Translations under genes and position numbers: made by a program
In this document: in pieces, positions 3,444 to 7,336 of the stretch
How positions within the stretch are numbered: the first letter of the stretch is position 1
Layout: the number at the start of each line of letters is the position of its first letter
Assembly: GCA_030247515.1 (NCBI GenBank)
Contig: JAOTSA010000002.1
Coordinates: forward strand, 1 to 60,689
Direction of reading: 5' to 3'
Source: Sulfurimonas sp.
GTDB lineage: Bacteria; Campylobacterota; Campylobacteria; Campylobacterales; Sulfurimonadaceae
DNA length: 60,689 nt
The notes under the pieces: generated by a model
Told to the model about the DNA's origin: nothing
Database searches by the model: none
What the model saw: the letters and a program-made list of their open reading frames with translations, nothing else

Positions 3444-4409
3444 ATGTTAATAGATAGCTATGATAGAGTAGTTGACTACATTCGTATCTCTGTCACAGAA
3501 CGCTGCAATTTCAGATGTCAGTACTGCATGCCTGAAAAACCGTTCTCATGGGTGCCAAAAGAGAACCTGCTTACCTTTGAAGAGCTCTTTATATTTATCA
3601 AAGTAACCATCGATGAGGGTGTCAAAAAGATTCGCATCACTGGCGGGGAGCCACTATTGCGTGAAGATTTGGATGTTTTTATCAAGATGATTTATGACTA
3701 TGCTCCAGATATCGACCTTGCTATGACTACAAATGCCTACCTTCTAAAGTCAACTGCACAAAAACTCAAAGATGCAGGACTTAAACGCCTAAATGTCAGC
3801 ATCGACACACTCAAACCAGAAGTAGCGCAAAAGATAGCGCAAAAAGACGTTTTGGCAAATGTTTTAGAGGGTGTTGAGGAGGCTCTTGCAGTTGGGCTTA
3901 AAGTCAAAGTCAACATGGTGCCTATGCACAACATGAATGCGAACGAGATAGTAGATGTACTAGAGTATTGCAAAGCAAGAGGCATGACGGTACGTTTTAT
4001 AGAGTATATGGAAAACCGTTACGCTTCAAAAGAGATAAGCAGAGTGCCATCAAGCGAACTTTTGGAGAGCTTGGCACAGCACTATGATTTTGTAGAAGAG
4101 GGGTATGATGGTGCTTCTCCCTCACGCTACTATCGCATGAGCGATGGTTATAAATTTGGTATTATTGAGCCTTATGGAGATGATTTTTGTAAGCAATGCA
4201 ACCGCATACGTCTCACTGCCGAGGGTCAACTCATCCCATGTCTCTACTTTGATGAAGCTTTAAGCATAGGCAAAGCCATAAAAGAGGGTGATATCGCAGG
4301 TGCGGCAGAGGTGCTAAGAGAAGTTGTCAAAAACAAACCCGAAAAAAATCGCTGGGGTGGAGAAGAAGGTGAAGTCTCCTCAAGAGCGTTTTATGAAACG
4401 GGCGGGTGA
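3444..4409 (+). CDS. moaA: GTP 3',8-cyclase MoaA
   Basis: A radical-SAM enzyme that rearranges GTP in the first step of molybdenum-cofactor synthesis; cytosolic. The protein has 321 residues. The SAM-binding 4Fe-4S motif is CNFRCQYC near residues 20-30, followed by [10 protein letters not shown]. The C-terminal substrate cluster is [13 protein letters not shown]...IPC, CX2CX13C. The chain ends in Gly-Gly, as needed for GTP binding and activation in MoaA. An in-frame ATG at 3342 would add 34 residues encoded partly by the repeat; the promoter and ribosome-binding site place the start at 3444. The stop overlaps the queE start (TGATG). Moco demand is consistent with moeA nearby and the molybdoenzyme at 15368. 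Confidence 0.95.
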
Positions 4410-5167
4410 TGGTTTATCTAGTAGAACATTTTTACTCCATTCAAGGTGAGGGTCGCTACAGCGGCAGACCATCTCTCTTTTTTCGCTTTGGCGGTTGCAA
4501 TATGCGGTGTGAGGGTTTTGGTTGCATTGAGAGTGCACCTGATGGCGTAAAAGTTTTGGGATGTGATACGGTTTATGCGGTCAGCAGAGAGTATTTTTCT
4601 CAAAACTGGATTCCCATACAACACGAAAATGAGCTTTTGGGCATCTTGAGCCTTTATGATTTACCCTATGCGGTTGACGTTGTTCTCACTGGCGGAGAGC
4701 CGCTTTTGTACGCAAACGATGCTCTTTTTGTTGCATTTTTAGAGGGTTTAGATGCCTTGGGGCATAAGATAACTTTTGAGACAAACGGCTCTTTGCGTGT
4801 TGATTTTGAGCATTTTGGTGTTTATAAAAAGTGTATCTTTGCGCTCTCTGTAAAACTCTCAAACTCTAACGAGTCTTTTAGCAAACGGGTACGAGGTGAA
4901 GTTATCAGCGAAATTGCTTTAAATGCTAAAGAGGCATTTTTTAAGTTCTCTATAGACGCAGACTCTATAAATGCTGCACTAGAAGATGAGATAGCAGAGA
5001 TTTGTGCTTTTGCCCCATCACTTGAGGTTTACTGTATGCCACTTGGCGGCAACAAAAAAGAGGTAGAAGCCAATACCGAACCACTTATAGAGTTTTGCAA
5101 GGCAAAAGGATACAGCTTTAGCGACCGACTTCACATAAGAATCTGGGATCAAAATAAGGGTGTGTGA
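4409..5167 (+). CDS. queE: 7-carboxy-7-deazaguanine synthase QueE
   Basis: A radical-SAM enzyme converting 6-carboxytetrahydropterin to 7-carboxy-7-deazaguanine in queuosine (preQ0) synthesis. It has 252 residues. EHFYSIQGEGRYSGRPSLFFRFGGCNMRC is the QueE N-terminal signature; the cluster cysteines read CNMRCEGFGC, the variant spacing seen in Campylobacterota QueE proteins. LTGGEPLL follows. Its start (ATG at 4409, preceded by an in-frame GTG at 4406) overlaps the moaA stop, and its stop overlaps queD in the same way, so the three genes form one translationally coupled operon. QueE and QueD catalyse consecutive steps. Confidence 0.92.
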   Translation: MVYLVEHFYSIQGEGRYSGRPSLFFRFGGCNMRCEGFGCIESAPDGVKVLGCDTVYAVSREYFSQNWIPIQHENELLGILSLYDLPYAVDVVLTGGEPLLYANDALFVAFLEGLDALGHKITFETNGSLRVDFEHFGVYKKCIFALSVKLSNSNESFSKRVRGEVISEIALNAKEAFFKFSIDADSINAALEDEIAEICAFAPSLEVYCMPLGGNKKEVEANTEPLIEFCKAKGYSFSDRLHIRIWDQNKGV

Positions 5168-5748
5168 TGCTGATACGAAAACTTTTTAAATTTGAAAATG
5201 CACATGTTGTGCGAGGTTGCTCCACAGTAAGATGCAGAAGTTCCATCCATGGACACTCCTATAAAGTCGAGCTTCTCTTTGAGTCCAACTTTTTGGACAA
5301 TGGGCAGATGGTCTATGATTTTGGGCTGATGAAGCAAAATATGAAAGATATTATTGATAGTTTTGACCATGCTATCGCTATTTGGAGTGGCGATGAAGAG
5401 AGCTATAAAGAGGATATGAAAAAACACTCTGCACGCTGGATTGAAATCCCTCTCTCTCCATCAGCCGAGCAGTTTAGCCGTCTTTTTTTTATGCTTGTTG
5501 ACAAACTGCTCTCGCTTACAACCGCAGTCAACGGAGAAAAAGAGGTAAAGCTTCATAGCATTATTGTTCATGAAACAGACACAGGTTACGCACAAGCTTT
5601 TCGAGAAGATGCCTACTCGTCAGCTATGGGCAGCATAAACTTAGAGGAGATTTTCTTTAGCGAGGAGATACAAAAAGAGTGGCATGATGCTAGACTTTTT
5701 GAGAAGATAAAAAATGGCGAGAGGTTTGTCAACCCACAGAGTGTTTAG
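5167..5748 (+). CDS. queD: 6-carboxytetrahydropterin synthase QueD / PTPS family
   Basis: A zinc enzyme of 193 residues that converts 7,8-dihydroneopterin triphosphate to 6-carboxytetrahydropterin, supplying QueE. The zinc ligands appear as FENAHVV (His) and SIHGHSY (His-x-His); the catalytic Cys lies in GCSTVRC. FDHAIA and IIVHETDTGYA carry the other active-site His and Glu. It is longer than minimal QueD (about 120 residues) because of an insertion around residues 75-125, which is usual for this phylum. ATG at 5167 overlaps the queE TGA. Confidence 0.88.
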   Translation: MLIRKLFKFENAHVVRGCSTVRCRSSIHGHSYKVELLFESNFLDNGQMVYDFGLMKQNMKDIIDSFDHAIAIWSGDEESYKEDMKKHSARWIEIPLSPSAEQFSRLFFMLVDKLLSLTTAVNGEKEVKLHSIIVHETDTGYAQAFREDAYSSAMGSINLEEIFFSEEIQKEWHDARLFEKIKNGERFVNPQSV

Positions 5749-5754
5749 AATAGA

Positions 5755-5783
5755 TTGACTTATTTATGTTAAATCATTATAAT
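5755..5783 (+). promoter_or_regulatory. Consensus sigma-70 promoter of the structured RNA locus
   Basis: TTGACT (5755-5760), a 17-base spacer and TATAAT (5778-5783). This is the only near-perfect -35/-10 pair I recognised in the window; most other promoters here are extended -10 types without a -35. The predicted transcription start is about 5790-5791, exactly where the 5' arm of the long-range inverted repeat begins. Confidence 0.75.
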
Positions 5784-5830
5784 TTCTGCTGTAAGTATTA
5801 GTTCATAGTAGTTAATGGAGTGGTAAATTA

Positions 5831-5868
5831 AGGTTGGAGGAAGTCATGAGCCTCTGACCTTTTTTTTT
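5831..5868 (+). terminator. Internal intrinsic terminator in the structured RNA
   Basis: A 10-bp stem pairs AGGTTGGAGG with CCTCTGACCT (two U-G wobbles) around a 10-base loop, followed by T at 5860-5868. Termination here would give an RNA of about 70-80 nt and keep the downstream small ORF silent. The stem's GGAGG can instead pair with CCTCC at 5871-5875, making two mutually exclusive structures. Confidence 0.7.
5846..5857 (+). CDS. Possible three-codon minigene (Met-Ser-Leu) in the terminator loop
   Basis: GGAGG (5836-5840) followed five bases later by ATG AGC CTC TGA. The Shine-Dalgarno match is among the best in the window, yet the frame is only three codons. A ribosome engaged here would cover both arms of the terminator hairpin. 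This may be chance; it is listed because position and spacing would make it a natural antitermination switch. Confidence 0.25.
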   Translation: MSL

Positions 5869-5900
5869 GCCCTCCAAAAATTACTATGAAGGGGTTCTTT

Positions 5901-5960
5901 ATGGATAAGCTAATACTTACAATACTGCTTATGTGCATTTTCGCACCGCTGCTTCGGTAG
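5901..5960 (+). CDS. Small hydrophobic peptide MDKLILTILLMCIFAPLLR
   Basis: A 19-residue ORF with a Lys near the N-terminus, a 14-residue hydrophobic core and a terminal Arg, enough for one short membrane-inserted helix. GAAGGGG (5888-5894) is spaced six bases before the ATG. An in-frame ATG at 5886 would add MKGFF but has no ribosome-binding site. Length and composition resemble type I toxins such as Ibs (18-19 residues) and other membrane-acting small peptides, but no homology is claimed. The start region is buried in the long-range pairing of its own mRNA. Codons 4-7 form the 3' arm of the 11-bp helix, so coding and regulatory constraints overlap. Confidence 0.5.
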   Translation: MDKLILTILLMCIFAPLLR

Positions 5961-5965
5961 TGCCG

Positions 5966-5985
5966 AGGGGTTTTGCCCCTTGCCC
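5966..5985. terminator. Terminator hairpin between the small ORF and moeA
   Basis: AGGGG-ttttg-CCCCT (5966-5980) lies 5 bases after the small-ORF stop and just beyond the end of the convergent moeA gene, so it may serve both strands. No long U-tract follows on either side. Confidence 0.45.
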
Positions 5986-5986
5986 C

Positions 5987-7207
5987 CTATTTCTCATTCA
6001 CCAAACCAACTCTCTTAGAAGATGTAAAACTAAATCGTGTCGGAACTATCTTGATACTCTCTCCTTTTCCAAACGCCTCACAACTGCTATCTACAATTAT
6101 AAAAGCATTTGAATTTGCAAGAGGTGTTATCATCCCAGGGGCAAATTTGTCGTAAGGTACAAATGTCGCTCCGTCAAAATAGCCAGGGATTACGCTTCTT
6201 CTACCACCCTTTAACGTATAATCATTTGCCATTTTTGTCTCTATGGGTGCAAGATATCTTGCTTCATCGCCACTAAGGGCTAAGATGATGCTCTGCCCGA
6301 AAAGTTCAAAGTTAAGAGCTGCTGCCATCGGGTTTCCAGGGAGATTGAGAACAAGAGTTTCTCCAATACGTCCAAAAGTAGTCGGTTTGCCAGGTTTAAT
6401 CTCTACTTTGTCAAAAAATATCTCATATCCAAAAGCACCAAACGCCTCTTTGGTAAAGTCGGCATCACCCACGCTCACGCCGCCAGAGGTGATGATAAGG
6501 TCGCTTTGAAGCGCACTTTTGATATGTTCTTGTATGCTTTGCAGTGTATCACTAGCCGTGCCGATAAAGTCAACATCACATCCAAGTTCTTGAACTCTGC
6601 TGAAAAAAGTAGGCGAGTTTGTGTTGTAGAGTTGATGTGCCGCAACGCTCTCAAAGTACATTTTCAGCTCATTTCCAGAAGCAAAGATGGCAATACGTGG
6701 CTTTTTATGGACTTTGATATGGCTGATACCCTGAGATGCAAGAAGTGTAATATGGTGTGCATATAGCTTTTGTCCAGAGTGTAGCAGTGTCGTGCCGCTC
6801 TTGATATCTTCACCGCAAAGGCGTATATGACTTGCTTTTTTGATATTTTGTGGCAGAACTATCTTAGCGTCTTGATGTGTAACATCTTCAATTGGGATGA
6901 TAGCCTCGCAGCCATCAGGAATCTTTGCTCCCGTCATGATTTTTATGGCACATCCGCCCTCAAGCACCACATCCGAGTTGTCGCCTGCAAAAATAGTATG
7001 CGTAACGCTGACACTTTTTGCAGTATCTTCCATCTTTATGGCATAGCCATCCATGGCGGAGTTGTCATACGGTGGGAGATTGTAGGTTGCAACGATGTCT
7101 TCCGCCAAGATAGAGCCTAGCGCATTTTCAAGCGGCATGATTTTAAGTGATGTCGGTTTGGTATTTTTATAAATAAATTCAAGTGCTTCTTCGATTGTAA
7201 CAGCCAT
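5987..7207 (-). CDS. moeA: Molybdopterin molybdenumtransferase MoeA
   Basis: Inserts molybdate into adenylylated molybdopterin in the last common step of Mo-cofactor synthesis. About 406 residues from the ATG at 7207. Signatures: LPPYDNSAMDGYAI near the N-terminus, MTGAKIPDGCEAIIPIED, the MoCF-domain motif TSGGVSVGDADF, and LNLPGNPMAAALNFE. A longer frame reaching 7297 adds 30 residues, but those are the translation of a family-1 repeat (FRHPELDSGSSF). With AAAGAGA upstream of 7207, the shorter form is the gene. It stands alone, convergent with the small-RNA locus. Confidence 0.93.
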   Translation of the reverse strand: MAVTIEEALEFIYKNTKPTSLKIMPLENALGSILAEDIVATYNLPPYDNSAMDGYAIKMEDTAKSVSVTHTIFAGDNSDVVLEGGCAIKIMTGAKIPDGCEAIIPIEDVTHQDAKIVLPQNIKKASHIRLCGEDIKSGTTLLHSGQKLYAHHITLLASQGISHIKVHKKPRIAIFASGNELKMYFESVAAHQLYNTNSPTFFSRVQELGCDVDFIGTASDTLQSIQEHIKSALQSDLIITSGGVSVGDADFTKEAFGAFGYEIFFDKVEIKPGKPTTFGRIGETLVLNLPGNPMAAALNFELFGQSIILALSGDEARYLAPIETKMANDYTLKGGRRSVIPGYFDGATFVPYDKFAPGMITPLANSNAFIIVDSSCEAFGKGESIKIVPTRFSFTSSKRVGLVNEK

Positions 7208-7240
7208 ATTTTTCTCTTTTTGATTTGATGTTAAACTTCT

Positions 7241-7336
7241 TGTAAAACTAGACCCTGAATCAAGTTCAGGGTGACGAAAACTCGCAAATCTCGTCATTCC
7301 AAACTTGATTTGGAATCTAGTTTAGAGGTTATGCAA
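7241..7336. repeat. Dispersed palindromic repeat, family 1 copy 3 (full length)
   Basis: A 96-base unit starting TGTAAAAC and ending GGTTATGCAA, with two hairpins: ACCCTGAA/TTCAGGGT (7252-7272) and ATTCCAAA/TTTGGAAT (7296-7317), joined by the linker GACGAAAACT. It is nearly the same as copy 4 (32356-32452), including both ends, so these two copies define the full element. Confidence 0.8.

Follow-up and report, generated by a model that had tools for sequence, protein, structure and literature searches.

How would a peptide gene be expressed if the 5′ end of its own RNA can pair with its coding sequence? This question is raised by a locus at approximately 5755-5988 of a 60,689-nucleotide (nt) stretch of Sulfurimonas sp. 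DNA (assembly GCA_030247515.1, contig JAOTSA010000002.1, forward strand; the whole stretch is hereafter the window), in which an earlier sequence-only reading had seen a promoter, nested complementary arms, a 19-codon open reading frame (ORF) and a closing terminator. We found 91 distinct related sequences, which make up a dispersed family that includes this locus. Comparison of these relatives establishes, at the level of sequence, a promoter, complementary arms, a terminator, a tail able to mask the Shine-Dalgarno (SD) sequence, a peptide under selection and arms specific to each copy. We consider it probable that this is a dispersed chromosomal family of self-silencing messenger RNAs (mRNAs) for 19- to 20-residue hydrophobic, presumably membrane-acting toxin-like peptides, with a leader that is possibly a same-strand antitoxin. 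The internal terminator, the copy specificity, a palindromic loop, the covariation of the SD sequence with an anti-SD tail and a second subfamily were all absent from the earlier reading. The features of the locus are as follows.

5755-5783, plus strand: sigma-70 promoter TTGACT-N17-TATAAT, 11 of 12 consensus bases
5790-5801, plus strand: P1 5′ strand TGTAAGTATTAG, the expected RNA 5′ end (covariation of helix 1)
5802-5813, plus strand: P2 5′ strand (covariation of helix 2)
5817-5826, plus strand: P2b 5′ strand, conserved GGAGYGGYAA (helix 3)
5832-5859, plus strand: P3 hairpin with a 9-bp stem and an apical loop (5841-5850) holding the palindrome TCATGA (5844-5849; covariation of helix 4)
5860-5868, plus strand: U9 tract, with P3 an intrinsic terminator (T9 conservation)
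5866-5875, plus strand: P2b 3′ strand TTTGCCCTCC, its first T's shared with the U tract (helix 3)
5879-5890, plus strand: P2 3′ strand (covariation of helix 2)
5888-5894, plus strand: SD sequence GAAGGGG, complementary to and covarying with the 3′ tail
5901-5960, plus strand: 19-codon ORF MDKLILTILLMCIFAPLLR, from ATG at 5901 to TAG at 5960 (fixed length, selection)
5910-5921, plus strand: P1 3′ strand, inside codons 4-7 (copy-specific complementarity)
5964-5982, plus strand: conserved 3′ hairpin CGAGGGG-loop-CCCCTTG, its 5′ strand SD-like, with no U-run after it
5982-5988, plus strand: anti-SD tail GCCCCCT (SD complementarity)

Helices, peptide and 3′ end

The promoter, the ribosome-binding site and the 19-codon ORF are where the sequence-only reading had placed them, and its first two arms are longer than it had claimed. 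The first, given as 11 bp from a 5′ end at 5791 (with 5910-5920), is 12 bp (5790-5801 with 5910-5921), and the second, given as 9 bp (5802-5810 with 5882-5890), is also 12 bp (5802-5813 with 5879-5890). A -10 hexamer is present in 81/81 intact-ORF members tested and mostly ends 5-6 nt upstream of the P1 5′ arm, so that the arm starts at the expected first transcribed base. The 201-nt region 5785-5985 has a folding energy of -80.3 kcal/mol (z = -7.0), and 0 of 200 dinucleotide shuffles folded as well.

We found the same long hairpin in all of the first 13 intact-ORF homologues, despite differing stem sequences. In a structure-blind MAFFT alignment, double compensatory changes were present at 19/35 predicted pairs. 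The compensatory changes by which the sequence-only reading had proposed to check its helices were seen at 38/39 modelled pairs when 64 members were aligned to the model. In that alignment 96.7% of cells are paired, as compared to 71.5% when shuffled and 36-52% when partners are slid by 1-3 columns, and the covariation score is 0.69 (control, 0.20); the alignment was fitted to the structure and its rows are related, so these figures should not be read as probabilities; the effect nevertheless lies well beyond both controls. Helix by helix, compensatory double changes occur in 11/11 pairs of P1 (94.9% of cells paired), 10/10 pairs of P2 (97.2%) and 9/9 pairs of P3, and 98.1% of P2b cells are paired. 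As judged from these alignments, the covariation support for the helices is decisive and they are not a product of chance. The true conserved central helices are P2b (5817-5826/5866-5875) and P3 (5832-5840/5851-5859). The third arm that had been proposed, 5834-5840 with 5871-5877, is real as a complementarity, but it is complete in only 9/91 members and we rejected it as a conserved helix.

The ORF encodes exactly 19 residues in 79/83 intact homologues, including those among the first 13, all of 19 residues (e.g. MDKLLIAILLMCIFAPLLR, MNKLLIALLLMCFFAPMLN). The 81 distinct peptides are 19-22 amino acids (aa) long with a median grand average of hydropathy (GRAVY) of 1.76, and are therefore small, hydrophobic and probably membrane-spanning. 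From single-base changes relative to the consensus in 73 distinct ORFs, we calculated a ratio of nonsynonymous to synonymous rates of 0.41 for the whole ORF and of 0.23 for codons 8-19, which lie outside P1; by this measure the ORF is under purifying selection. Codons 4-7, which lie within P1, mostly exchange one hydrophobic residue for another, a pattern expected of a stretch that is at once part of a membrane peptide and part of a variable RNA helix. Searches of the peptides with Pfam, NCBIfam and PADLOC gave no match above cut-off, the Pfam and NCBIfam queries being extended or subfamily B peptides owing to a 20-aa minimum.

At the 3′ end, the closing terminator that had been claimed at approximately 5964-5982 is a conserved hairpin, yet no U-run follows it; what follows is a C-tract complementary to the SD sequence. 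This tail mirrors the SD sequence and the two change together across the family, as in the pairs AGGGGGT/GCCCCCT, AGGGAGAT/GTCTCCCT, GAAGGGGACA/TGTCCCCTTC, GAAGGGGGCGA/TCGCCCCCTTT and CAAGGAGTCCG/TGGGCTCCTTG. Complementarity to the SD sequence is 19.3 for own tails as compared to 17.4 (sd 0.25) when the tails are exchanged between members, and in diverged members the SD/tail matches are 8-11 bp. At this copy, the GCCCCCT tail (5982-5988) touches the stop codon of a convergent moeA-like gene.

The internal terminator and the expected copy-specific leader

At the centre of the locus, downstream of the 5′ arms and upstream of the ORF, lies an intrinsic terminator. It spans 5832-5868 and consists of GGUUGGAGG, a loop of 10 nt, CCUCUGACC and nine U; a pattern scan had passed over it because the loop limit of that scan was 8 nt. 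Across the family, P3 stems are 8-13 bp (median -16.7 kcal/mol) and exactly T9 follows in 82/91 members. Transcription would be predicted to terminate at U9, and because the terminator stands between the 5′ arms and the ORF, leader RNAs of approximately 80 nt are expected: 79 nt here (5790-5868), with a family median of 80 nt. The expected leader carries, single-stranded, the complement of the region surrounding the SD sequence and of codons 4-7.

The order promoter, terminator, ORF is also that of a signal-sensing attenuator, a leader that would free both transcription and translation of a non-toxic small membrane protein such as an accessory subunit or stress peptide, and a conserved peptide under selection agrees with this as well. 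However, the family has no conserved antiterminator helix (the one candidate seen was checked), and its copies are dispersed beside unrelated housekeeping genes, patchy, multi-copy and equipped with copy-specific arms. An attenuated gene of this kind thus seems distinctly unlikely.

Among paralogues in 16 genomes, pairing of the 40-nt 5′ segment with the downstream part of its own copy has a mean energy of -39.0 kcal/mol, as compared to -20.8 kcal/mol for pairing with that of a sister copy, and P1 alone gives -14.4 kcal/mol in cis and -5.7 kcal/mol in trans. By these predicted energies, arms fit their partners in the same copy but not those in other copies. The sequence-only reading had also suggested a search for an antisense RNA; in 89 elements we found no conserved antisense promoter, with 0.52 minus-strand -10-like sites per element (0.68 in shuffles) and no fixed position. 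These data bear on a classical type I toxin-antitoxin locus, in which a processed, inert mRNA is controlled, as in AapA/IsoA or Ibs/Sib, by an overlapping antisense RNA, here from a non-consensus antisense promoter. Such a locus would have the same order as the AapA family, and would account for the short hydrophobic peptide, the long 5′/3′ pairing and an inert primary transcript. In contrast to the plus-strand -10, which all 81 members tested carry, the minus-strand -10 is not positionally conserved and is rarer than in shuffles, and the same-strand leader already provides the complementarity. We regard classical antisense control as rather unlikely.

In some copies the ORF is lost or broken while the promoter, P3 and the U tract are kept: L192 (G172:C11), L193 (G168:C11), L191 (G405:C47), L046, L066:454-553 and L194. 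In L192 and L193, a deletion joins the SD sequence AAGGGG to the repeated, SD-like strand of the 3′ hairpin. Conversely, when we scanned 135 genomes for the conserved ORF core, we found no intact ORF without a leader. Near-perfect motif matches outside the model had been candidates for such orphan ORFs and were rejected as chance matches plus one relic, L203 (G101:C1:1716486), whose 5′ arm runs directly into the second half of the ORF after a deletion that removed the terminator and the start. The presence of ORF-less copies but not of leader-less ORFs is an asymmetry that would fit a peptide that is costly to carry and a leader that does no harm or protects.

The loop of P3 often contains a palindrome. 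Six-base palindromes (TCATGA, TAATTA, TTCGAA, TGATCA, TTATAA) are present in 12/13 distinct P3 loops of at least 7 nt, as compared to 2.0 in shuffles, with a maximum of 7 in 2000 trials. The common 9-nt loops AG-UAAUUA-A and AU-UAAUUA-C are laid out 2+6+1, like the HIV-1 dimer-initiation loop. When a regulator and its target come from one strand, their loops are identical, so that only self-complementary loops can kiss; this need may explain the palindromes in P3.

A weak covariance match at C65 of the same genome (G000) is a further member with the same plan and belongs to a diverged subfamily, B. This genome has three copies of subfamily B, at G000:C65:4635-4787 (L159, L207, L208), G000:C85:1403-1672 (L224) and G000:C111:14981-15257, and the subfamily is present in 16/99 relatives (L209-L227). 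Its peptides have 20 residues, e.g. [M]FYKFLVVFLVLMVFAPALY, and start with TTG, GTG or ATG. P3 and the long U tract (T9) are conserved, and the extreme 5′ end pairs with the stretch from the SD sequence to codon 4, over the start codon, again more strongly in cis (-19.1 kcal/mol) than in trans (-9.3 kcal/mol; 15 members). That a diverged subfamily repeats this design is the strongest argument for a functional order of arm, terminator, complementary start region and peptide. Upstream of its SD sequence, subfamily B has a conserved G-rich box, GGGGTGGGTGGGA, which may be a G-quadruplex.

Proposed silencing and the relation to known systems

By the comparative evidence, the RNA should start at the first base of P1, and its 5′ end pairs with the ORF in subfamily A or with the whole translation start in subfamily B. 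P2, P2b and P3 continue this pairing into one long hairpin, and the 3′ tail can mask the SD sequence. Under the self-silencing reading, most transcripts would end at U9 as abundant leaders of approximately 80 nt, and the rare read-through mRNA would be inert from birth, its start region covered by its own leader. Activation would follow removal of the 5′ strand, the tail or both; when processing removes the 5′ strand, surplus leader from the same copy may replace it in trans. The leader would then be a same-strand antitoxin that needs no antisense promoter, the palindromic P3 loops could kiss as identical rather than complementary loops, and the presumably toxic peptide would be produced only when the leader supply failed or the arms were removed. 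The fullest form of this proposal, an RNA-silenced toxin on one strand and one promoter, whose antitoxin is the terminated leader of its own mRNA, complementary to the toxin's translation start, matched per copy and with target recognition by a kissing loop in subfamily A, we put forward tentatively, as a possibility that we ourselves doubt.

Several points weigh against the self-silencing reading. The covariation is explained by pairing in cis, and a trans role of the leader is unneeded for it. The P3 loops of subfamily B are UUCG-like and without palindromes, so kissing is not general; some other P3 loops are not palindromic either, and related sequences inflate the counts. In addition, the SD:anti-SD pairing and P1 cross topologically, so that the two locks may form at different times, as alternatives or as a pseudoknot. 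As for the silent, riboregulated toxin-like membrane-peptide gene with 5′-3′ pairing of the sequence-only reading, covariation, purifying selection on a fixed-length hydrophobic ORF and a multi-copy, patchy spread speak strongly for it, and in outline that reading is correct. Its peptide is presumably toxic, and no antisense RNA or promoter was found.

In type III toxin-antitoxin systems such as ToxIN, an RNA antitoxin and a toxin gene share one promoter with a terminator between them, much as is proposed for this locus, and the RNA binds the protein toxin. Here, in contrast, it is the toxin-like mRNA that the leader complements, and a peptide of 19-20 aa is encoded; at the locus we found no tandem-repeat array, and its product is a 19-aa peptide rather than an endoribonuclease. 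The hok/Sok system has a larger toxin, the antisense RNA Sok and another arrangement. It is alike in that pairing of the 5′ and 3′ ends holds the toxin mRNA inert until processing (PMC6733600). An inert primary transcript is described as characteristic of type I toxin loci (PMC6733600), and as judged by comparative structure the locus resembles a type I toxin mRNA in this and in its short hydrophobic peptide (PMC6733600, PMC8309996). The AapA/IsoA modules of Helicobacter pylori, which belongs to the same bacterial order, have short hydrophobic peptides, mRNAs kept inert by long-range pairing and SD masking, and several chromosomal copies with copy-specific regulation (PMC6733600, PMC8322730); their IsoA RNAs cannot substitute for one another (PMC6733600), an insulation of the same kind as that of the copy-specific arms here. 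However, AapA1 has 30 aa as compared to 19-20 aa here, and IsoA is an overlapping antisense RNA, whereas our 89 elements have no conserved antisense promoter and an intrinsic terminator separates a complementary leader on the same strand from the ORF. Rfam gave no sequence relation to AapA/IsoA for the window and five relatives, a comparison that did not include the AapA peptides themselves. The Ibs/Sib loci of Escherichia coli also encode very hydrophobic 19-residue peptides (IbsC is 19 aa) in several chromosomal copies (PMC8309996); the resemblance is one of composition and length only, Sib is an antisense RNA, and the literature examined describes neither a comparable leader nor an internal terminator for ibs.

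For the window, Rfam had no match at gathering score; five relatives searched at E 0.5 gave nothing relevant and one irrelevant weak match. No known riboswitch or attenuator was recognised by an Rfam match or by a conserved terminator/antiterminator alternation. The opinion of the sequence-only reading that no named family matches agrees with Rfam, Pfam and NCBIfam, and we found no prior report of such a gene in Sulfurimonas in the open literature searched. Since the family lacks the antisense gene that defines AapA/IsoA, as far as sequence tests tell, and sequence searches relate it to no known family, we do not file it under any named family. It is likely a new family of widespread, self-silenced peptide genes with a leader RNA on the same strand; Rfam, Pfam, NCBIfam, PADLOC and the open literature searched contain no description of it. 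The family has up to six copies per genome in environmentally important sulfur oxidisers and was overlooked because its ORF is only 19-20 codons long. If the leader acts in trans, the family would show how the RNA antidote of a toxin can be encoded on the toxin's own strand, and why such systems would escape type I searches that rely on antisense genes.

Distribution and genomic context

The blastn and covariance searches that the sequence-only reading had proposed found homologues in Sulfurimonas and relatives. By blastn, this genome contains three copies (76-78% identical), with further copies in relatives. Covariance models found the family in 28/135 genomes of the genus, with 1-6 matches each, and in 21/399 genomes across the order Campylobacterales, including very diverged members in other families with peptides such as MWRLLLIILLLCLLTKKLY and MGNLIVIIVLLMLIITKLY. 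A scan of approximately 85,000 genomes for a two-part motif (P2b motif and T9 box) gave 54 stretches, whose titles named only Sulfurimonas, Sulfuricurvum and other Campylobacterota. The large searches were filtered more strictly and these genome counts are lower bounds. Some weak covariance matches lay on the reverse strand; we rejected these as real copies because each only echoes the long hairpin. No family match was present in plasmid, phage and viral collections.

The gene order queE-queD-moeA (window 4406-7297) is conserved in approximately 20 relatives, and in most of the closest ones only about 10-60 nt separate queD and moeA. A 238-bp insert at this junction is present in the window and in one sister genome (G159), which gives a clean comparison of occupied and empty sites. 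The moeA gene is convergent, and we therefore rejected a leader controlling a downstream gene for this copy. Other copies in this genome adjoin ispG, dapF, priA and similar genes, identified by visual inspection of translations; copies beside such differing genes indicate that the family does not serve one neighbour.

Dispersed copies and clean empty queD/moeA sites would also be expected of a mobile repeat resembling miniature inverted-repeat transposable elements (MITEs) or repetitive extragenic palindromes (REPs), in which the palindromic structure would serve transposition and the ORF would be incidental. By eye, however, the inserted copy has no obvious terminal repeats or target duplication around it, pairing is kept by compensatory change in paralogues that are only approximately 76-78% identical, and ORF length is fixed with nonsynonymous changes suppressed. 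A mobile repeat is extremely improbable.

Tandem or neighbouring copies occur in L086 (Sulfurimonas indica NW8N), L066, G039:C4:445-1029 and L140; in G039 the subfamilies A and B are adjacent, and in L140 two leaders stand in succession. In L195 (G131:C55:2800-3400), an unrelated palindromic insert (GATGGCTTGCC...GGCAAGCCATC) interrupts the P2 region.
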